In this document: piece by piece, positions 31,469-46,810 of the stretch
How positions within the stretch are numbered: position 1 is the first letter of the stretch
Layout of the letters: the number at the start of each line of letters is the position of its first letter
Assembly (NCBI GenBank): GCA_029573725.1
Contig: JAKQDQ010000104.1
Location: forward strand, 1-64,000
DNA from: Verrucomicrobiota bacterium
GTDB taxonomy: Bacteria; Verrucomicrobiota; Verrucomicrobiia; Limisphaerales; JADLHS01
Direction: 5' to 3'
Length of the DNA stretch: 64,000 nucleotides
Notes under the pieces: generated by a model
Databases searched by the model: none
Seen by the model: the letters and a program-made list of their open reading frames with translations, nothing else
What the model was told of the DNA's origin: nothing
Program-made: the position numbers and the translations under genes

Positions 31469-31706
31469 ATCTGTGGAGTTGGCCTGCCTCGCGGAATCTG
31501 CGCCCGTGAGTTCAGTTTCTGCGGGTTAAGATGGGATGAAGGATCGTGAAAAAGCAACCATGCTTCGATGTTGCGGCAGCGCCGCGCCGGATTGAAAGGG
31601 GAGAACCGGCGTCTGCTTGCCGGGATCGGGCCGCACCCCAGCCGCGCCGCTGCGCCGCCACGGGAGGAGTCTGGCGTATGAACGGATGGGGGAGAGGGAG
31701 ACGGGA

Positions 31707-31783
31707 TGGTGCGCGAGGCGGGGGTCGAACCCACAACCTTCGGCTCCGGAGGCCGACGCTCTATCCAATTGAGCTACTCGCGC
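31707..31783 (-). tRNA. tRNA-Arg (anticodon CCG)
   Basis: A complete 77-base cloverleaf on the minus strand. The acceptor arms are GCGCGAG and CTCGCGC. The anticodon stem TCGGC/GCCGA encloses the loop CTCCGGA, giving anticodon CCG. The T-loop is GGGTTCGACCCC. Discriminator A and an encoded CCA end are present. Confidence 0.96.
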
Positions 31784-32029
31784 AACTGGTCGCCAGCATA
31801 GAAGGCCCGGCGCGGCGGTTCAATGCGTTTATTCTCGCCACCCCCGGCGCGAAGCGGAGAGGTGGGCTGCGCGGGACGGGGAAGTACCGGGTTTCTCCCG
31901 GCAGGCGCGGACGGTCGACCGGCCTTTGACTCGCCGGAACATTCGCGGGCGGCTTCGGTTCGGCGAGCAGGACGCCTGCCGCAACCGCAAGGGCCGGCCA
32001 CCCCGGCCGGGATTCCCCCGTGCGGTTGA

Positions 32030-34127: not shown

Positions 34128-34850
34128 TCACATCACGCGCATGAGGTGTGCGTGCAATTGATCCCATTGGCCCGACGACGATTCCGAACTGGGGGCTTTC
34201 AGGTGCCAGGTTTGGAAGCCGTGCAGCCTGGCGGGGAGGATGTCGTTGTCCAGCCGGTCGCCGACCATCAAGGTTTCATGGGAGTCAATGCCGCGGGCTT
34301 CCAGGCGGGACCGGAGGATTTGAAAACCGTAGGGATCGGGTTTGCTGAAGCCGAAGCGGTAGCTCAGGTAACACAGGTCGGCATCGAACATTTTCCAGTG
34401 GCAGCCTTCCTTCTGCAGTTCCATGTCCAGTTCCCGGATGGTGTAAGCCTGCGCGTTGGAGGCGATGCCCAGCACGCACTTTTTCCCAACCAGCCACCGC
34501 AGGGTTTCGCCCGCGCCCGGCATCAAACTGATGCTGCGGCTGATCTGCATCTGGCGGAACACAAATTCCTCCTTCTGACTCGCCTTCAATTTGGCAAAGT
34601 CCGGCAGGATCTCGCGGACCACTGCCGCCCACACGACTTCCGGGGAGGCAATACCCCGCGCCTTGGCGGAATTATGACGCAGCATGATCGCCCGGTTGCA
34701 GGCGATGGAAAATTCCAGCCGATTCAACGGCGGTTCGCAGTGCATCAGATCCTTGAAGAGCTGCTGCCATTCGTCATCGGCGTGTTTGGGCGGCGGCCCC
34801 ACCTGCAACAGCGTGGTGTAAATGTCGAAAATGACCGCGCGAACTTTCAT
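34128..34850 (-). CDS. HAD-superfamily hydrolase (subfamily IA-like) with DxY nucleophile motif
   Basis: A 240-aa cytoplasmic HAD protein. Motif I is FDIYTTL with nucleophile Asp9, but Tyr11 replaces the usual second Asp. Motif II is GIASNAQ, motif III Lys is in FSKPDPYGF, and motif IV is MVGDRLDNDI. The start ATG 34850 overlaps the glycosyltransferase stop codon (ATGA), so the pair is translationally coupled. In position it could be the phosphatase of a glucosyl-3-phosphoglycerate pathway, but DxY is usual in haloacid dehalogenases and is odd for a phosphatase. Its substrate is therefore open. Confidence 0.85.
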   Translation of the reverse strand: MKVRAVIFDIYTTLLQVGPPPKHADDEWQQLFKDLMHCEPPLNRLEFSIACNRAIMLRHNSAKARGIASPEVVWAAVVREILPDFAKLKASQKEEFVFRQMQISRSISLMPGAGETLRWLVGKKCVLGIASNAQAYTIRELDMELQKEGCHWKMFDADLCYLSYRFGFSKPDPYGFQILRSRLEARGIDSHETLMVGDRLDNDILPARLHGFQTWHLKAPSSESSSGQWDQLHAHLMRVM

Positions 34851-36427
34851 GGTTCTTTTGTCCATAAAAGCGGATAAAGGTTTGCCGCGCAAAGCTTTTT
34901 CGCGATAAAAGCCGCCTGCAACGCCCTCGCGTCGGGTTGCGTTCCGGGCGGCGACGGGCTGTTCAGCAGGCGCACGAACCGGCGGGCGTAACTGCGTCCG
35001 CTGAGCCAGCGGTCCGCCCGGGCAGGCCAGGTGGTCACGCGCAACTGCCTTTCCTGTGCCCGTTGCCGCCAGGCGCGCAGGAAGGGGTTCAATTTCTGGC
35101 AGCATTCCCACGAACGCGCGGCGGGCAGACTGAGTACTTCGAGCTGGGCCGTGAGCGTCAAACGGCTGAAAGGCACGGTCTGATCCGGGCGCGTCGCGCG
35201 CAGCAGTGCCGGCGTGTCCGCCAGCGCCCGGACCGCCGCCGGCAGGGCGCGCCGCCACCGGGCAAACAGTTTTTCCTGACGCATTCGCTCGGCGCGGTGA
35301 TCGAACAGGTCCAGCGGAATTTGAATTTCTGTGTAGGCCTGGGGAAAGCGGAACCCAAACCGCGCCAGATCGGGGGTGATGTTGGGCAGTTCGCGCGCGA
35401 GCAATGGTCGGCTGGCCGCCGCCGCTTCCAGATACGGCAAGCCGAATCCTTCCTGGATGGACGTCAGCAGCACGGCTTCCGCCGCGGCGAGGAGTTCGGG
35501 AACGGTGGGCTTGCGGGCTTCACTGCCCTGCAACACACCCAGCCGGAGGCGCCAGCGATGGCGTCGCGCCGCGTCGGCCAGTTTATGAAAATAGGGCAGT
35601 TCGTCCGCCGAACTGACATCGCCCGTGGTGACCAGCCAGGCTTCCGGCCGCAGCCAGCGCGTCAACAGCAGCGCTTCGGCCACGTTTTTGCGGCGCAGCA
35701 GGCGGCAGGGCAGGAGCCAGACCGGGGCACCATCGCGATCCAGCCGCCGGTGCAACCAACGCCGCGCCGCGGTCGCGCGCGGTCGTGCCGGCGGCGGCAG
35801 CGGCGCGGCCAGGTTCGGCAACCAGGCGCTCGGCTGCAGGGGGCCCGCGGCCAGAATGGTCGCGTCCTCCTGGTTGATGGTGGCGTGCCGGATCTCCGTG
35901 CCGCGCGGAAAAAGGGTGCGCGCAATCGCCGTCAGACCCGGGTAGCCCGCGCGCCGCAACTCGGGCACGCGCAGCCAGCGGTTGTCGAACCACCAATCAT
36001 GATGATGCGAAATCAGACGCAGGCGTCGCCTGGCGCAACCGCGGGCCAGTTCCGCGGCGAGGATGGCGTTGCGGCCGATGCCGAGGTTGTGCGCCCACAC
36101 CACGCAGTTGTCCGGTGTGTAAGGCGCCAGGAGGCGGGTGAGTTGTTGGCGGACGCGCCGGCGCACCCGGGCGGCGGGCACAGACAACTCGGAGAAATAG
36201 CCCAGTTCCGGTGCGGTGTGGAGGCGCAGGCGGACGGGCGCGAGCCGCCGGGCAAAGTGCCGGTTCCACGCGGCGTCCCGGGCCTCGCCGGAAACGAGCA
36301 GTACCGTGTCGAGCCGGGGCAGGGCCTGCCGGAGATGGGGCGTCGCCAGTTCAACGACGCGCCGGATTCCTCCCGGGCGAAAATGATAATGAACGATGAT
36401 CAACGTCACGGCCGCGCGCACTCCCAT
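34847..36427 (-). CDS. Glycosyltransferase (GT4-like)
   Basis: About 526 aa, cytoplasmic, rich in Arg and Ala. The N-terminal Rossmann half starts VTLIIVHYHFRPGGIRRVVELATPHL, a retaining GT-B acceptor loop. The C-terminal half has VWLLPCRLLRRKNVAEALLL (nucleotide-sugar side) and EAVLLTSIQEGFGLPYLEAAAA, the EX7E motif of GT4. The start at ATG 36427 is favoured because an upstream start at 36469 would run through a 26-base inverted repeat. It is coupled to the HAD gene and divergent from a GpgS-type synthase. A role in adding mannose or glucose to glucosylglycerate (as MggS-type enzymes do) is a hypothesis. Confidence 0.82.
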   Translation of the reverse strand: MGVRAAVTLIIVHYHFRPGGIRRVVELATPHLRQALPRLDTVLLVSGEARDAAWNRHFARRLAPVRLRLHTAPELGYFSELSVPAARVRRRVRQQLTRLLAPYTPDNCVVWAHNLGIGRNAILAAELARGCARRRLRLISHHHDWWFDNRWLRVPELRRAGYPGLTAIARTLFPRGTEIRHATINQEDATILAAGPLQPSAWLPNLAAPLPPPARPRATAARRWLHRRLDRDGAPVWLLPCRLLRRKNVAEALLLTRWLRPEAWLVTTGDVSSADELPYFHKLADAARRHRWRLRLGVLQGSEARKPTVPELLAAAEAVLLTSIQEGFGLPYLEAAAASRPLLARELPNITPDLARFGFRFPQAYTEIQIPLDLFDHRAERMRQEKLFARWRRALPAAVRALADTPALLRATRPDQTVPFSRLTLTAQLEVLSLPAARSWECCQKLNPFLRAWRQRAQERQLRVTTWPARADRWLSGRSYARRFVRLLNSPSPPGTQPDARALQAAFIAKKLCAANLYPLLWTKEP

Positions 36428-36445
36428 CAAATTTTTGAAATCGAA

Positions 36446-36471
36446 GCTTGTCAGGGTTGGGCGTGACAAGC
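36446..36471. promoter_or_regulatory. Candidate operator: perfect inverted repeat between gpgS and the glycosyltransferase
   Basis: GCTTGTCA (36446-36453), ten bases, then TGACAAGC (36464-36471): a perfect 8-bp inverted repeat in the 59-base divergent gap. A TTGTCA (-35-like, 36448-36453) and GATAAC (36472-36477) spaced by 18 bases overlap it on the plus strand. The shape fits a dimeric repressor site controlling both directions. Confidence 0.55.
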
Positions 36472-36486
36472 GATAACATTCCCTCT

Positions 36487-37698
36487 ATGTCGGATTTTTT
36501 CCAAACTGGGGCCGTGGCGACCCTGCATCGCCTGGGTCAGACCAACCTGGCCCGGATGGAAGGCGAACTGTTGGAATTTTCCGCCGAAGCGCCGATTGCG
36601 TTGATACTGCCCTGTCACGTGCGGGAGCTGGGCACCAAGGCGCTGCGCAGCATCATTCGCGAACTGCAGACGGTGCGCTATCTCAAGCAGATCATCGTGG
36701 GAATTGACGGCGCCAACCAGCGGGAGTGGGCGCGGGCGAAGCGGATTTTTTCGGTGCTGCCGCAGCAGCCGGTACTGCTCTGGAACAACGGGCCGCGGAT
36801 GCAGAATTTGTTTCGCGAACTGGATGACGCGGAGTTGACGGCGGGCACGATGGGCAAGGGGCGCAACGTCTGGATCTGCTTCGGTTACGCCCTGGCCAGT
36901 GATGCGGCGCAGATGGTGGCGGTGCATGACTGTGACATCACCACCTACACGCGCGAGTTGCTGGCGCGCCTGTGTTATCCGGTGGCGCATCCGGCGCTGG
37001 GGTTCGATTACTGCAAGGGCTACTACGCGCGGGTGACGGACAAGCTGAATGGGCGGGTCATGCGCCTGCTGGTCACGCCGCTGCTGCGCGCATTGAAGTC
37101 CATTATCGGCCACCATCCCTATCTGGTGTACATGGACACGTTCCGCTACCCGCTGGCGGGGGAATTTTCGATGGACATGGATCTGGTGCGGCGCGTGCGG
37201 ATTCCGCACGACTGGGCGTTGGAAGTGGGTTTGCTGGCCGAAGTGTTTCGCAACAGCGCGCCGCGGGCGATCTGCCAGTCCGAACTGTGCGACAACTACG
37301 ACCACAAACACCAGGAGCTGTCTCCGCGCGACATGGAGAAGGGGTTGAACAAGATGGCCACGGACGTGAGCCGCTCCTTTTTTCGGCGCATGGCGGCCGA
37401 GGGCATCAAGCTCGACACCGGGTTGTTCGACACCCTGTTGAGCGCGTACGTGCGGCAGGCGGAAGACACGCTCCGCTTTTACTCCGCGGACGCCGTGTTG
37501 AACGGCCTGCGCTATCCGCGCCATGACGAGGAGCGCGCCGTGGCCACGTTCGTGCGTTCGATCCGCGCCGCCACCCGTTCCTTTCTGGAAGATTCCTTGT
37601 GGACGCCGCTGATTCCGAATTGGAACCGCATCCAATCCGCGCTGCCGGATTTTTTTGACAGACTCCATCGCGCGGTGGAACTGGACAATCGCACCTGA
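36487..37698 (+). CDS. gpgS: Glucosyl-3-phosphoglycerate synthase-like (GT81, GpgS)
   Basis: A 403-aa cytoplasmic GT-A enzyme expected to join an NDP-glucose to 3-phosphoglycerate, the first step to glucosylglycerate. Visible marks: IALILPCHVREL and QIIVGIDGAN (nucleotide site), GKGRNVWICFGYAL, the metal-binding DCD at residues 148-150 (VAVHDCDITTY), and YPLAGEFSMD with VGLLAEVFRN downstream (acceptor and sugar region). These match GpgS/MpgS-like family GT81. The start MSDFFQTG at 36487 is preferred over an upstream GTG. It is divergent from the GT4-like and HAD genes. Mannosyl transfer (MpgS activity) is the main alternative. Confidence 0.87.
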   Translation: MSDFFQTGAVATLHRLGQTNLARMEGELLEFSAEAPIALILPCHVRELGTKALRSIIRELQTVRYLKQIIVGIDGANQREWARAKRIFSVLPQQPVLLWNNGPRMQNLFRELDDAELTAGTMGKGRNVWICFGYALASDAAQMVAVHDCDITTYTRELLARLCYPVAHPALGFDYCKGYYARVTDKLNGRVMRLLVTPLLRALKSIIGHHPYLVYMDTFRYPLAGEFSMDMDLVRRVRIPHDWALEVGLLAEVFRNSAPRAICQSELCDNYDHKHQELSPRDMEKGLNKMATDVSRSFFRRMAAEGIKLDTGLFDTLLSAYVRQAEDTLRFYSADAVLNGLRYPRHDEERAVATFVRSIRAATRSFLEDSLWTPLIPNWNRIQSALPDFFDRLHRAVELDNRT

Positions 37699-40715: not shown

Positions 40716-41291
40716 ATGCGGACGATGAATTTGCCGCGGGCGATATTTCTCGATCGCGATGGGGTGTTGATTGAAGAACACGACTATTTGCATCGGATTG
40801 AGGACGTGGTTTTCACTCCGGGAGCATTCCCGGCGCTGCGACGGGCTGCCGCGGCGGGCTTTCAATTTTTCATTGTCACCAATCAATCCGGTGTGGGACG
40901 CGGTTATTTCACCCTCGCCGAGGTTGAACGAGTGCATCAGCATCTGCTCGCGGAACTGGCGCGACAAGGAATTGGGATTAGAAAAATCTACGTGGCACCG
41001 GAAGCGCCGGACCAGCCCAGTCGCGGCCGGAAGCCCTCGCCGCAATTTCTGTTTGAGGCCCGCGATGAGTTTGGTTTGGATCTCGCCCAGTCGTATTTCA
41101 TCGGTGACAAGTTGAGCGACCTGGAATGTGGCTGGAACGCGGGGGTGCGTCAGAGTCTTCTGGTCCGGACGGGCCACGGTCGCGAGACAGAACGACAGTA
41201 TGACGCACGGTTGCGGGCTTGCCCCATCCTCAACGACCTGCCCGCCGCCCTGGAGTGGATCCTGGCGCAGAACCAGCCCTCAGCGTCGTGA
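40716..41291 (+). CDS. gmhB: D-glycero-D-manno-heptose-1,7-bisphosphate 7-phosphatase-like (HAD, GmhB)
   Basis: A 191-aa cytoplasmic HAD phosphatase. Motif I is FLDRDGVLIEE (Asp13, Asp15), motif II is IVTNQSGVGRGYF, and motifs III/IV are RGRKPSP and GDKLSDLECG. The arrangement fits GmhB, which makes heptose 1-phosphate for lipopolysaccharide, or the related histidinol-phosphate phosphatase. The loop that binds zinc in E. coli GmhB has no Cys here (APEAPDQPSRGRK), so this is a zinc-free version. ATG 40716 or 40725 can be the start. It lies alone after a strong terminator. Confidence 0.82.
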   Translation: MRTMNLPRAIFLDRDGVLIEEHDYLHRIEDVVFTPGAFPALRRAAAAGFQFFIVTNQSGVGRGYFTLAEVERVHQHLLAELARQGIGIRKIYVAPEAPDQPSRGRKPSPQFLFEARDEFGLDLAQSYFIGDKLSDLECGWNAGVRQSLLVRTGHGRETERQYDARLRACPILNDLPAALEWILAQNQPSAS

Positions 41292-41653
41292 TGTCCGGTG
41301 GCGGTTGTCCCGCAGGCTGAGGGAGGGGGCGCTTCCAAGATTTGATGGCCGGGTTGGCGATGAGCCGACTTGCGCTCCGACGGCTGTGGGGAATGAACCT
41401 GGTGTTTGAAATAGCGGGGATCCGATCGGTCAACCGTGGACACCTTCACTGATTCCGAAGCCTGGAGCTGCACGTCTTTCAATCGAGGCGCATTGCAAGC
41501 GACAGCACCGGGGTGGCATCCCAGCGGACTGGTTGCCTACGTAATTTTCACCGTCGTCGTCAGTAAAAAACCGAAACGACTTGCTTCGCGGAATGAAATA
41601 GGCTTATCCACCGCGTGTTTTTCCAAACCAGTGCCGGATTGCTTACGGACGTC
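41292..41653. other. 362-base gap before the giant LRR protein gene
   Basis: No convincing gene is present. The second half is AT-richer and contains CCTACGTAATT at 41536-41546, the same 11-mer found upstream of the PEP-CTERM gene (2767-2777). This part probably holds the promoter of the LRR gene; an exact promoter could not be placed. Confidence 0.55.
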
Positions 41654-44600
41654 ATGTCGCGCATGCAACATAAACAGGCGGCAGTCCCAGGTCCTTGCCC
41701 GAGATCGTTCGCTGGCGTGGGTTGGGAATGGCTGGTTGTTGTCGTGTTGGGCGTGGCGGGGCTGTATGGCCAGGTTCCGGCCAGCGGCGCAGGTTGCCTG
41801 GCCAGCCCGGCTGGGTTGGTGGGGTGGTGGCCGGGTGATGTGGATGGGCGGAATCTGGCGGGCACCAATTGGGGAATTCTGCAGCCCGGCGCGAAGGTGG
41901 GTGGCGATGGCGTGGTGGACGGAGCCTTTCACTTTGACGGCACGAACGGCTTTGTGAGCATTCCCGATGCGCCGGAGTTGCGTCCCACGAATTTGACGGT
42001 GGAGGCCTGGGTCTGTTTTGCCGGGCTGGATTCGCCGGGTTCTGCGCCGGCGGAGGGACGTCAGTTCATCGTGCGCAAACCCAATGCTTATCTCGCCTTT
42101 CAAGCCGCTTATGATTTGAGCAAGATTCGGCTGGCGGATCGCGACGTTTTCTCTTTTCAAGTCAATTCTCCTGCTGGCGCGGTGGCGGAGGCCCGGGGTT
42201 CAACCTCCATCGTGCCGGAGCAGTGGTATCACGTGGTGGGGGTGCGCGGCCCCAACTCCGTGCAAATCTACGTGAACGGTCAGTTGGAGGGGCAGACCGC
42301 CGTTGATTTTCCGCAATCGTATGTGGCGGCACCCCTGTATCTGGGAAGTCCGGGGCCATATTGGTACAACCGCAAATTCAAAGGCTGGCTCGATGAGGTC
42401 TCGCTCTACAACCGGGCCCTCTCTGCTGGTGAAATCGCCTCACTCTATACCGCTACGGAAGGAAAATGTCGTCCCGCAGTCATTGCCACTCCGCCCCAGT
42501 GGCGGGATGCCTGGGTGGGGGACAATGTCTCGCTCCACGTCGAGGCGATGGGATCGACACCGCTGGCGTATCAGTGGCTGTTTCAGGGCTGGCCGCTTTC
42601 CGGGGCGACCAATGCCACGCTGCTGTTGACCAACGTGCAGATGCCCGTGGCGGGTGCCTACCAGGTAACGGTCAGCAATTTTCTGGGACAAACGACCAGT
42701 TGGCCGCCGGCGTGGCTTTCGGTGAGCATGACTGGACAGGCAGCTCCGTTCATTTTGCAACCGCCCGGAAATCAAACGGTGTTTGTGGGAGACACGGCGT
42801 GGTTTAATGTGGTGGCGGGCGGAGGGCTGCCGCGTTCCTATCAGTGGCGCAAGAACGGCCTGTCGCTGCCGAACCAGACCAACGTCGTGCTGGTGTTGCC
42901 GCAGGTGACGACCAAGGCTGGGGGTTACTACGACGTGGTGATCACCGATACCGCGGCGCGGGTGACCAACACAGCGGCCGCCCTGCTGGTGGTTGTCCCG
43001 TCGTTGGATCTGCAACCACCGTTCATCCGTGGAACGTCGCCCGACCAGGTGGCCGGCTGGGACCAGGAGGTTGAGCTAGGGGTGGAGGCGGCCGGCACGG
43101 AGCCGTTGAATTTTCAATGGCGCAAGGATGGAGTGCCGCTGCCGGAGGCCACGGAGGCAACGCTCTACTTTCCGGCCGTGACGCCCGCGGATGCCGGCCG
43201 GTATGATGTCGTCATCACCGGTCCCGGCGGCAGCGTCACCAGTCGCATGATCACGCTGACGGTGAAGTTGATTGTGGATCCGGAATTGGAGAAAGCGGTT
43301 GCCTGCGCCCTGGATGTCCCGCCCACGGGCATCACCCAGGCGGCGCTGACCGAATTTGAGCGGCTGACGCTTCGTCACCGGGGGATTCAGAGTTTGCGCG
43401 GTTTGGAGTGGGCCACAAATCTGACTGAGCTGGATCTCAGCGGCAACGCGGTGACGAACCTCGAGCCGTTACGCGCCCAGTCTCGGCTGACCCGCTTGCA
43501 TCTGGATCAGGCACAATTTGTCCAGCTGGATTTGACGCCCTTGGCAGCCCTGCACAACCTTACCAATCTGGTGCTGGGCCGGGTGCTGGCGGACACGTAT
43601 GAACCGCTGGCGGCGTTGACCAACTTGACGGACCTGACCATTCGCGAAGGCGGCCGCATCGCGCTGGGGTTTTTGGAGGTTCTACCGCGACTGCAGGCCC
43701 TGCGGGTGCTGCAAAGTTGGGCGGAGGATCTGGCACCTGTCGCCACGCTGACCAATCTGCAGCAGCTGGAATTGCGCTGGATGTTGAATCACATGGACGA
43801 ACGCCAGTGGGTTGCGGCGAGCGCTCCCTTGCGGCGCTTGAATCTCGAAGGCAATGGATTGACCAACTTCGGGTGGCTGTCGGACTTTCCGCGGCTGGAA
43901 TCCTTGAATCTGGCCGACAACGAATTGCGCGATCTCTCCGCCCTGGCGGGATTGACCAATCTCACTTATCTGACCTTGAGCCGGAACCCCCTCACCGATT
44001 ACGCGGCATTGTCGGGGGCACCCCGGTTGGTGAACCTGGAACTATCTGGAAACCACCTGAGCAACCTCGGCTTTCTGGCCGCACTGCCGGGACTCAAGTT
44101 TTTGGATCTGTCCTATAATGCGATCACGAATCTTGATCCGCTGCTCGGGCTGACCAATCTCGAAAGTCTGGTGCTGGCCGGGAATCCCGCCGCCAATTTC
44201 CCGCTCCTGACCAATATGCCGCGTCTGACGAGTTTGTGGCTGCATGATTGCGGGCTTGGCAACGCAAATTTCATCGCCGGTCTCCCGGGATTGCGGCACT
44301 TGAACCTGGATGGAAACCAGATCGTTGATGTCACCCCCGTGCTCGGGCTGACCAACCTGACCGGATTGGGTTTCAGTCATAATCCGGCGGACAACCCGCT
44401 GGCCGTGGCAGCGTTAACCCGTTTGACCGGTCTGCGGCTGGAGCAGGACCAGTTGGGCGACATCAGCCCTTTGACCAACTTGCAGCAGCTGACTTATCTG
44501 AGTTTGAATCAAAATCAGATTGCCGATGCCGCTCCACTGGGGAGGTTGACCCAGTTGCAAAGTCACTATCTGGCGCACAACCGCATCCGGGACCTGTCCT

Positions 44601-46810
44601 ACCTCCTGCAATTGCCGCATTTGCGCGCGGCGGACCTGAGTTTTAATCTGCTCAACCCGGTGGAAGCGGTGCCGGAACAGGAGATCGTGGACATCTTCCA
44701 GTGTCAAAACGGAGATGAACCCGCGGGTGGGGGGCGGGCGGCCGACGGCCGGGTCTTCCATCGGGATTCCCAGTTGACGTGGACGCCCCAGCACACTTTC
44801 CCCAGCATTTCCGCGCCCACGCGCTGGTTCCTGGCCCAAGACTCGGAGGATAGTCTCGCTTTTACGGTTGACTACTCCGGCCAGTCGACGCCGGTGACCG
44901 TGGGAGTGATTTCCGGCGATCCGATCCTGCTCCCGCCGCCGCAAATCTCCCTGGCGGGCGCGGAATTTGTCCGGCACGTCACACTCCGGCCCGGCCTGAA
45001 TCAAACGGGCGTTGCCACGCTGACCCTGGTGGCCACGAATGAAGCGGGCCTGACCAGTCAGGCGGAGATCCGGGTGGAGGTTCTTGTGCCGGCCCCGCTG
45101 GGCGCGCTGGATCCGGACTGGGAGCGCGCTTTGCGCTGGGGGGCCGGCAATGGCACGCGCGAGTTGACCAGCGCGGACCTGCTCAACGTGACCCGCTTGA
45201 TCGGCAGCGACGTGAACCTGACCGGTTTTCAGGGCTGGCCATGGCTGACCAACGTGTCCCGTCTCTACCTGACCGGAAAGAATGTTCATGAACTGGGATT
45301 CCTCTCCTATCTGCCGAACCTCCAAAGCTTGACGTTGATGGACACGGCGGTGGTCGATTTTTCTCCGCTGACCAATGCGACAGGACTGACGGATTTGTAC
45401 CTTTCCCGGGCGGCCATCAGCAATTTGTCCTTTTTCGCGCGGTGTTCGCAGCTGACTTCGCTGACCCTTCATTGGCTCAAGGTTTCGGATCTCACGCCCC
45501 TGGCGGGTCTGACCAATCTCACCCAGCTGGAGGTGAATTTCACGACCGCCACAAATCTGCTGCCGCTGTACAACCTGCCGGCGCTGCGTGAGACGGACGT
45601 CCGGTTTAATCTGCTGGATTTGGCGTGGGGCTCGGTCAATTCCCGTCTCGTGGATTACTTGGAGGCGCGTGGCGTTGACGTGTGGGCGGGACCGCAACGG
45701 GCGCCGCCGAAGGTCTCCATGCCCAATCCATGGTACATTTGGGCGGATGCCCCGGCCAGGCTGCCCGTCGAATTTCTGGAGAACGGCATGTTCATTCCGG
45801 ACGATTTCATCGGCACGGTGCAAACCCTGCAGCCGGGGCTCCTGCCTCAGTCCGCCCTGAAACTGGAGTCCAATGAATGGGGTTACGATTGGGAGCTGGA
45901 GGTCACGCCCGCCACTGGGCAGAGCGGCGCCGGTCAGTTGCTGTTCACGGTGACCAACGACGTGGGCCTGGGCAGCAGCCAGCTTGTGACGGTCATGGTT
46001 TCTGCCGCCCGGCCAATCAGCGCCCCGGCATACGGCCTGACGGACTTGGACTGGCAATCATCGCCAGGCGCGGGGTGGTTGGGCCAGAACGCGGTTTTTT
46101 TCCAGACCTTTCCCGCGATGCAAAGCGCACCCCTGGAAGACGATGGGGTTTCGGAACTGGAGGCGGAATTGATCGGCCCGGGAACACTGAATTTCTGGTG
46201 GAAGGTGAGTTCCGAGGAGGAAGCTGACTGGTTGGTGTTTGAATCCGCCACCCAGACCAATGCGATTTCCGGTGAGGTGGACTGGCAGGAGGAATCCGTC
46301 CACTTGGGGCCGCGCCGCCAGGTCGTGCGCTGGCGTTATGGCAAGGATGGAAGCGGTCGTAGTGGCAATGATGCGGGCTGGCTGGCCCACGTCACCTTTG
46401 TTCCGGACACTTGGCTGGACATTTTTCCCGTTCCGGAACCGGGACATCTTCAAATGGATCTCTACGGCGTGTCGAACCAGTGGTACGAGCTGCAGGCATC
46501 AACCGATCTGATGAATTGGAGGGAGCTCACCCTGGTGCAAGCCACGAATCGGATCACTTCCATGAAGTTGGATGCGCAGGGACATCCCGCGCAATTCTAC
46601 CGGGCCAGGGCGGTGGTAGAGTTCCCTTACCTGTGGGTCTCCGCCCGCACACCCGCAGGCTTTCAGCTGTCCTGGTCCGGAATGGGGATCTTACAGGGCG
46701 CTCCCACCGTTGACGGTCCGTGGGAAGGGGTCGCCGGACGCAGCCCGGCTTTCATCTCAACCGCTGCGGCGTCATCCCGCTTTTTCCGGGTGCAGGTCAC
46801 GGGATTTTAA
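41654..46810 (+). CDS. Giant secreted LamG/Ig/leucine-rich-repeat protein
   Basis: About 1718 aa. After a signal (WLVVVVLGVAGLYGQVPASG) come a LamG domain at 50-265 (LVGWWPGDVDGRN, FHFDGTNGFVSIPDAPELRP, FKGWLDEVSLYNRALSAGEI), three Ig-like domains at 270-545 (YQWLFQGWPLSGATN, YQWRKNGLSLPNQTN, FQWRKDGVPLPEATE), an internalin-like LRR array of 21-22-residue units at about 560-1010 (LTELDLSGNAVTNLEPL), a beta spacer, and a second short LRR block at 1150-1330. The end holds a sandwich domain and two copies of the F-[FY]-R module (QFYRARAVV and the terminal FFRVQVTGF). Likely a surface adhesin. Start choices are GTG 41615, ATG 41654 or ATG 41663. Confidence 0.87.
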   Translation: MSRMQHKQAAVPGPCPRSFAGVGWEWLVVVVLGVAGLYGQVPASGAGCLASPAGLVGWWPGDVDGRNLAGTNWGILQPGAKVGGDGVVDGAFHFDGTNGFVSIPDAPELRPTNLTVEAWVCFAGLDSPGSAPAEGRQFIVRKPNAYLAFQAAYDLSKIRLADRDVFSFQVNSPAGAVAEARGSTSIVPEQWYHVVGVRGPNSVQIYVNGQLEGQTAVDFPQSYVAAPLYLGSPGPYWYNRKFKGWLDEVSLYNRALSAGEIASLYTATEGKCRPAVIATPPQWRDAWVGDNVSLHVEAMGSTPLAYQWLFQGWPLSGATNATLLLTNVQMPVAGAYQVTVSNFLGQTTSWPPAWLSVSMTGQAAPFILQPPGNQTVFVGDTAWFNVVAGGGLPRSYQWRKNGLSLPNQTNVVLVLPQVTTKAGGYYDVVITDTAARVTNTAAALLVVVPSLDLQPPFIRGTSPDQVAGWDQEVELGVEAAGTEPLNFQWRKDGVPLPEATEATLYFPAVTPADAGRYDVVITGPGGSVTSRMITLTVKLIVDPELEKAVACALDVPPTGITQAALTEFERLTLRHRGIQSLRGLEWATNLTELDLSGNAVTNLEPLRAQSRLTRLHLDQAQFVQLDLTPLAALHNLTNLVLGRVLADTYEPLAALTNLTDLTIREGGRIALGFLEVLPRLQALRVLQSWAEDLAPVATLTNLQQLELRWMLNHMDERQWVAASAPLRRLNLEGNGLTNFGWLSDFPRLESLNLADNELRDLSALAGLTNLTYLTLSRNPLTDYAALSGAPRLVNLELSGNHLSNLGFLAALPGLKFLDLSYNAITNLDPLLGLTNLESLVLAGNPAANFPLLTNMPRLTSLWLHDCGLGNANFIAGLPGLRHLNLDGNQIVDVTPVLGLTNLTGLGFSHNPADNPLAVAALTRLTGLRLEQDQLGDISPLTNLQQLTYLSLNQNQIADAAPLGRLTQLQSHYLAHNRIRDLSYLLQLPHLRAADLSFNLLNPVEAVPEQEIVDIFQCQNGDEPAGGGRAADGRVFHRDSQLTWTPQHTFPSISAPTRWFLAQDSEDSLAFTVDYSGQSTPVTVGVISGDPILLPPPQISLAGAEFVRHVTLRPGLNQTGVATLTLVATNEAGLTSQAEIRVEVLVPAPLGALDPDWERALRWGAGNGTRELTSADLLNVTRLIGSDVNLTGFQGWPWLTNVSRLYLTGKNVHELGFLSYLPNLQSLTLMDTAVVDFSPLTNATGLTDLYLSRAAISNLSFFARCSQLTSLTLHWLKVSDLTPLAGLTNLTQLEVNFTTATNLLPLYNLPALRETDVRFNLLDLAWGSVNSRLVDYLEARGVDVWAGPQRAPPKVSMPNPWYIWADAPARLPVEFLENGMFIPDDFIGTVQTLQPGLLPQSALKLESNEWGYDWELEVTPATGQSGAGQLLFTVTNDVGLGSSQLVTVMVSAARPISAPAYGLTDLDWQSSPGAGWLGQNAVFFQTFPAMQSAPLEDDGVSELEAELIGPGTLNFWWKVSSEEEADWLVFESATQTNAISGEVDWQEESVHLGPRRQVVRWRYGKDGSGRSGNDAGWLAHVTFVPDTWLDIFPVPEPGHLQMDLYGVSNQWYELQASTDLMNWRELTLVQATNRITSMKLDAQGHPAQFYRARAVVEFPYLWVSARTPAGFQLSWSGMGILQGAPTVDGPWEGVAGRSPAFISTAAASSRFFRVQVTGF

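Follow-up and report, generated by a model that had tools for sequence, protein, structure and literature searches.

A predicted glucosylglycerate module of Limisphaerales with a GT81 synthase, a HAD-family candidate phosphatase and GT4 glycosyltransferases

Genes at the GT81 locus

The window analyzed here, a stretch of 64,000 nucleotides from a Verrucomicrobiota bacterium of the order Limisphaerales, carries a GT81-family gene that is transcribed divergently from a GT4-type glycosyltransferase gene, with a HAD hydrolase gene downstream of the latter (Table 1). The initial annotation had described a GT81-type synthase with the DCD motif at residues 148-150, lying 59 bases from a divergent GT4-like gene that is coupled to a HAD hydrolase, and each of these points was borne out: the DCD residues are exact and the synthase matches the GpgS_Meth profile over its full length, the distance is correct for the GT4 start at ATG 36427 and the encoded protein matches PF00534, and the last two genes share a 4-base ATGA overlap, the second of them matching HAD families. 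Judged from homologues, GTG 36409 is also possible as the GT4 start. No sigma-70-like promoter was matched in the 59-base divergent region.

Table 1. Features of the GT81/GT4/HAD locus
Feature	Position	Strand	Remarks
HAD hydrolase (REG-2-like, HAD-IA), candidate phosphatase	34128..34850	-	ATG 34850; motif I D9-x-Y11-x-T13, K170, GDR (D198), D203
ATGA junction where the GT4 stop and the HAD start overlap	34847..34850	-	4 bases, from sequence
GT4-type glycosyltransferase, ~520 aa	34847..36427	-	start ATG 36427 or GTG 36409; E-x7-E motif E340-E348 (residue 1 at 36469, where the longer ORF begins)
Divergent intergenic region GT4/GT81	36428..36486		59 bases, counted from GT4 ATG 36427
GT81 GpgS candidate, 403 aa	36487..37698	+	ATG 36487, stop 37698; DCD 148-150 (within HDCD), GRVM 189-192, PLAGEF 222-227

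The GT81 protein matches NF040724 (GpgS_Meth) at 329.7 bits (E 2.3e-98) across residues 5-401 of 403, a score that falls short of the profile's curated equivalog threshold of 700. With NF010496, the second GpgS profile, it reaches 61.9 bits, likewise less than the curated equivalog threshold. In an alignment of 32 GT81 homologues, which extends to Gammaproteobacteria, Nitrospirae and Acidobacteria at ~50% identity, the segments HDCDI, GRV, YPLAGEF and HKHQ show little or no variation, and solved GpgS and MpgS structures match the window protein at the DxD, GRVT and PLAGE regions. The Limisphaerales branch has Met in place of the Thr of GRVT, and the gammaproteobacterial sequences of the alignment have Ser, Ala or Cys there. 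The protein resembles GpgS of the Methanococcoides type in its full-length profile match and in its DxD and acceptor motifs, but differs from it in scoring below the equivalog cut-off and in the Thr-to-Met change. Because of that score, and because some GT81 relatives bear the name mannosyl-3-phosphoglycerate synthase, a mannose donor is possible; we consider it very probable that the enzyme is a GpgS. A second, divergent GT81 (37-39% identical) is found at L020, L021 and L022 (G006:C39, G024:C11 and G010:C15), and several genomes with this second GT81 also have the window-type one.

The GT4 protein matches PF00534 (Glycos_transf_1) with an E of 2.2e-7 and belongs to a family of 30 members that are 45-57% identical to it and keep the E-x7-E motif. 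Its AlphaFold model has a GT-B fold (pLDDT 88.5, residues 1-17 at low confidence), and the nearest solved structures are generic GT-B glycosyltransferases at 11-17% identity. Assignment to the MggS family was ruled out, as NF041101 gave 22.7 bits in two partial stretches against a cut-off of 640. The profiles of the window GT4 and of MggS-like GT4 proteins align over 244 columns with a common HHHD segment, which is at most suggestive of kinship; the window GT4 belongs to an unassigned subfamily, separate from the MggS-like one. A plasmid search gave no match to the window GT4, and a Vibrio plasmid homologue of MggS had no GpgS match within its 9-kb flanks.

The HAD protein matches PF00702 (E 1.1e-12) and TIGR02252 (E 5.1e-13), and its predicted model has a pLDDT of 95.7. 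Across the 31-member family D9, Y11, T13, S131, K170, D198 and D203 are invariant, so that the nucleophile Asp, the motif II Ser, the motif III Lys and the GDRxDND segment are all conserved. Motif I reads Asp-x-Tyr, also invariantly, whereas HAD phosphatases carry the acid/base Asp at the Asp+2 position; a solved (S)-2-haloacid dehalogenase shares the Tyr in the alignment but is without the GDxxxND motif IV. In the NCBIfam scan TIGR01486, the profile of the MPGP-type GpgP (HAD-IIB), did not match the window HAD, and a phosphatase of that type has no copy in the genome of the window and is absent from 56 of 57 relatives. The sole copy, in G010, apparently lies in a separate mannosylglycerate-like locus. 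The window HAD is the best phosphatase candidate because no MPGP-type phosphatase was found; that it serves as the phosphatase of the pathway is rather likely, and it could be an unusual one. Of 29 pairs of GT4 and HAD homologues, 20 or more meet at a one-base coordinate in common, as in the window, and the ATGA arrangement suggests translational coupling of the two genes.

The G010 locus (L173 4215-7968, on C67) contains glycosyltransferase-like, transporter-like and MPGP-type phosphatase genes, and a mannosylglycerate pathway is possible there.

Co-occurrence and gene neighborhoods in the order

To score co-occurrence, 167 genomes of the order with completeness of at least 90% were used, and GT81 was counted at 67% identity or more. 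GT81 was carried by 27 genomes, GT4 by 28, HAD by 28 and the MggS-like GT4 by 26; GT81 and GT4 shared 26 genomes, GT81 and HAD 26, and GT4 and HAD 27. Fisher p values for the gene pairs ranged from 5e-27 (GT81 with GT4) to 8e-29 with relatedness ignored. The genes are unevenly distributed among members of a genus or family, and they remain associated where they are unlinked (G010, G023 and G051). Three more genomes have a GT81 at 48-49% identity and neither GT4 nor HAD. The arrangement of the window was found again in more than 20 Limisphaerales loci. Since the divergent pair recurs in many relatives and the genes co-occur, the arrangement of GT81, GT4 and HAD is not a matter of chance.

Among 32 loci of Verrucomicrobiota subdivision 3, to which Limisphaerales corresponds, the GT4 lies near GT81 in at least 25, the HAD in at least 22, an MggS-like GT4 in at least 15 and a GH13_18 gene in at least 14, all of them lower bounds because only the fetched flanks were covered and many contigs are short. 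All five families stand together in nine of these loci (L044, L047, L050, L053, L059, L061, L065, L066 and L067). In outgroup GT81 clusters an MPGP-type HAD-IIB phosphatase lies beside GT81, and those of Gammaproteobacteria also include GH13_18 and often a kinase-like gene.

The MggS-like GT4, which in relatives belongs to the GT81/GT4/HAD cluster, is encoded in the genome of the window on another contig (C71:507681-508967). Its product matches NF041101 (MggS) over nearly its full length at 209.5 bits, below the curated cut-off of 640, and it is this protein, not the window GT4, that is the closest MggS relative in the genome. The same contig carries a GH13_18 gene near 519.5-521.1 kb, the product of which has TETN at 269 and a loop-A Glu (PYE at 379). 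A (T/S)ETN motif and a Glu in loop A are the published signatures of the GH13_18 glucosylglycerate phosphorylase, GGaP (PMC7178133). Of the independent signs that glucosylglycerate is made in this cell, the presence of both is the strongest.

Some genomes depart from the common pattern. In G022, GT81 and an intact HAD gene are present and no GT4, MggS-like or GH13_18 match was found; the HAD gene stands between FeoB-like and helicase/nuclease-like genes, and in G072, a genome of the same genus, these neighbors enclose a GT4 gene immediately ahead of the HAD gene. As the G022 HAD persists with GpgS while both GT4s are absent, it fits dephosphorylation of the GpgS product, in this one genome. 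G072 (one contig, 97% complete; L179 and L180) has GT4, HAD and the MggS-like gene, and neither GT81 nor canonical GpgS was matched, a gene content that counts against the glucosylglycerate reading of the module. In G057, a canonical GpgS (383.5 bits to NF010496, cut-off 262) is followed directly by a GT4 homologue (99.8% probability over 447 columns), an MggS-like gene is two genes away and no HAD match was found. A single short contig of G042 carries an MggS-like gene, a GH13_18 gene and the beginning of a canonical GpgS gene. Because of these last two contexts, both GT4 families go with two different GpgS types. A peptidase-like gene is kept between the MggS-like gene and canonical GpgS in two genomes (L181 9587-10768 and L159 3616-4794).

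A proposed glucosylglycerate pathway and its alternatives

Glucosylglycerate, a small sugar-acid, shields bacteria against stress. Solutes of the glycerate type have been described chiefly in marine, halophilic, thermophilic and mycobacterial species. We propose that the three window genes belong to a glucosylglycerate module of Limisphaerales, made up of GpgS, the HAD phosphatase, the GT4s and recycling by GGaP, a reading that we find fairly probable from the gene families, their motifs, their synteny and their co-occurrence. GT81 would couple NDP-glucose and 3-phosphoglycerate to glucosyl-3-phosphoglycerate, and the HAD would take off the phosphate, standing in for the unrelated MPGP-type phosphatase that most other bacteria have beside this GpgS type. 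The window GT4, the C71 MggS-like GT4 or both may then add hexose to glucosylglycerate or to its phosphorylated precursor, with mannosylglucosylglycerate, or a di- or triglycosylglycerate akin to it, as the product, and the GH13_18 phosphorylase on C71 would recycle glucosylglycerate. The acceptor of the window GT4 is probably of the glucosylglycerate type. Mannosylglucosylglycerate may be among the products of this genome, which we regard as possible while leaning slightly against it.

This refines what had been inferred for the locus from its letters. Of the compatible-solute cluster first proposed, the glucosylglycerate half is strengthened by the GpgS family match, the GGaP-like gene and the near-strict co-occurrence, and the mannosylglucosylglycerate half is weaker. 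The window GT4 falls far short of the MggS cut-off; the C71 GT4, at ~209 bits, is the closer match. The HAD is not a phosphatase of the usual MPGP type, and its motif I is without a second Asp. The route is probably longer than was proposed then, because two GT4s and the HAD co-occur.

Among known systems, Marinobacter-type GpgS/GpgP and GGaP clusters share a GT81 of the same family (~50% identical) and a GH13_18 protein with TETN and the loop-A Glu; they differ in their phosphatase, which is of the MPGP type (HAD-IIB), and in carrying a kinase-like gene, whereas Limisphaerales have the REG-2-like HAD-IA and two GT4 genes. GGaP itself was reportedly described by Franceus et al. in 2017. Mannosylglucosylglycerate pathways with MggA, MggB and MggS are those of Petrotoga and Rhodopirellula, which the module resembles in the logic of GpgS, GT4 and candidate phosphatase and in having an MggS-family GT4 in the same genome, but this homologue scores far below 640 and the GT4 of the window is longer and of another kind. 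We would call the module a variant of a known compatible-solute pathway. A text search of part of the literature found no paper describing a glucosylglycerate pathway in Verrucomicrobia. If the five families work together as proposed, the module would extend glycerate-type solutes to a common uncultured group, the MAG records of which carry titles naming lakes, groundwater and reactors, and it would supply a candidate non-orthologous phosphatase and an as yet unassigned GT4 subfamily, both directly testable.

The same genes can be arranged in another order, in which the product of GpgS passes, still phosphorylated, to the window GT4 as MggA, and the HAD takes the part of an MggB-type phosphatase; a route of this kind is reported for Rhodopirellula and Petrotoga. 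The GT4 and HAD genes overlap and are nearly always adjacent, as expected if the product of one is the substrate of the other, the 244-column profile alignment would fit, and GpgS, MggA and MggB enzymes were reportedly described by Cunha et al. in 2013 in another PVC phylum. However, the C71 protein matches the MggS family better than the window GT4 does, and the G022 HAD, which stands without either GT4, fits a glucosyl-3-phosphoglycerate phosphatase better, so we hold this phosphorylated route to be unlikely. A bolder reading, in which the GT4 of the window pairs with the Asp-x-Tyr HAD as new enzymes that make an undescribed di- or triglycosylglycerate solute in Limisphaerales, the HAD being a phosphatase that can do without a second catalytic Asp, is on the whole rather doubtful.

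Two readings take the genes away from free solutes. The GT4-HAD pair might belong to a pathway for extracellular polysaccharides or glycans and have the GpgS gene only as a neighbor, as would suit a GT4 that has a generic GT-B fold and no close solved or curated relative. Against this stand the near-perfect co-occurrence of the pair with GT81 in the 167 genomes, unlinked cases included, the distant GT4 homologue adjoining canonical GpgS in G057, and a window gene list in which no other glycan-assembly genes were seen by eye; we judge it most improbable. It is likewise very improbable that glucosylglycerate is here the primer of a longer intracellular oligosaccharide. Such a role has a precedent in mycobacteria, where glucosylglycerate is the first intermediate of methylglucose lipopolysaccharide synthesis (PMC4555173), and three glycosyltransferases do co-occur. 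However, nothing resembling OctT or a methyltransferase was noticed among the genes adjoining the clusters, and the co-occurring glucosylglycerate phosphorylase-like gene fits a free pool.

Other features of the window

A tRNA-Arg (ccg) gene lies at 31707-31783 on the minus strand, overlapped by an ORF (31546-31929) with a THNLRLRRPTLYPIELLA stretch that is probably an artefact. By eye, a second HAD-type ORF (40725-41291, plus strand) resembles heptose bisphosphate phosphatase, with an FLDRDGVL motif, and the plus-strand gene at 41615-46810 encodes a very large protein (~1700 aa), parts of which resemble LamG, Ig and leucine-rich repeats.
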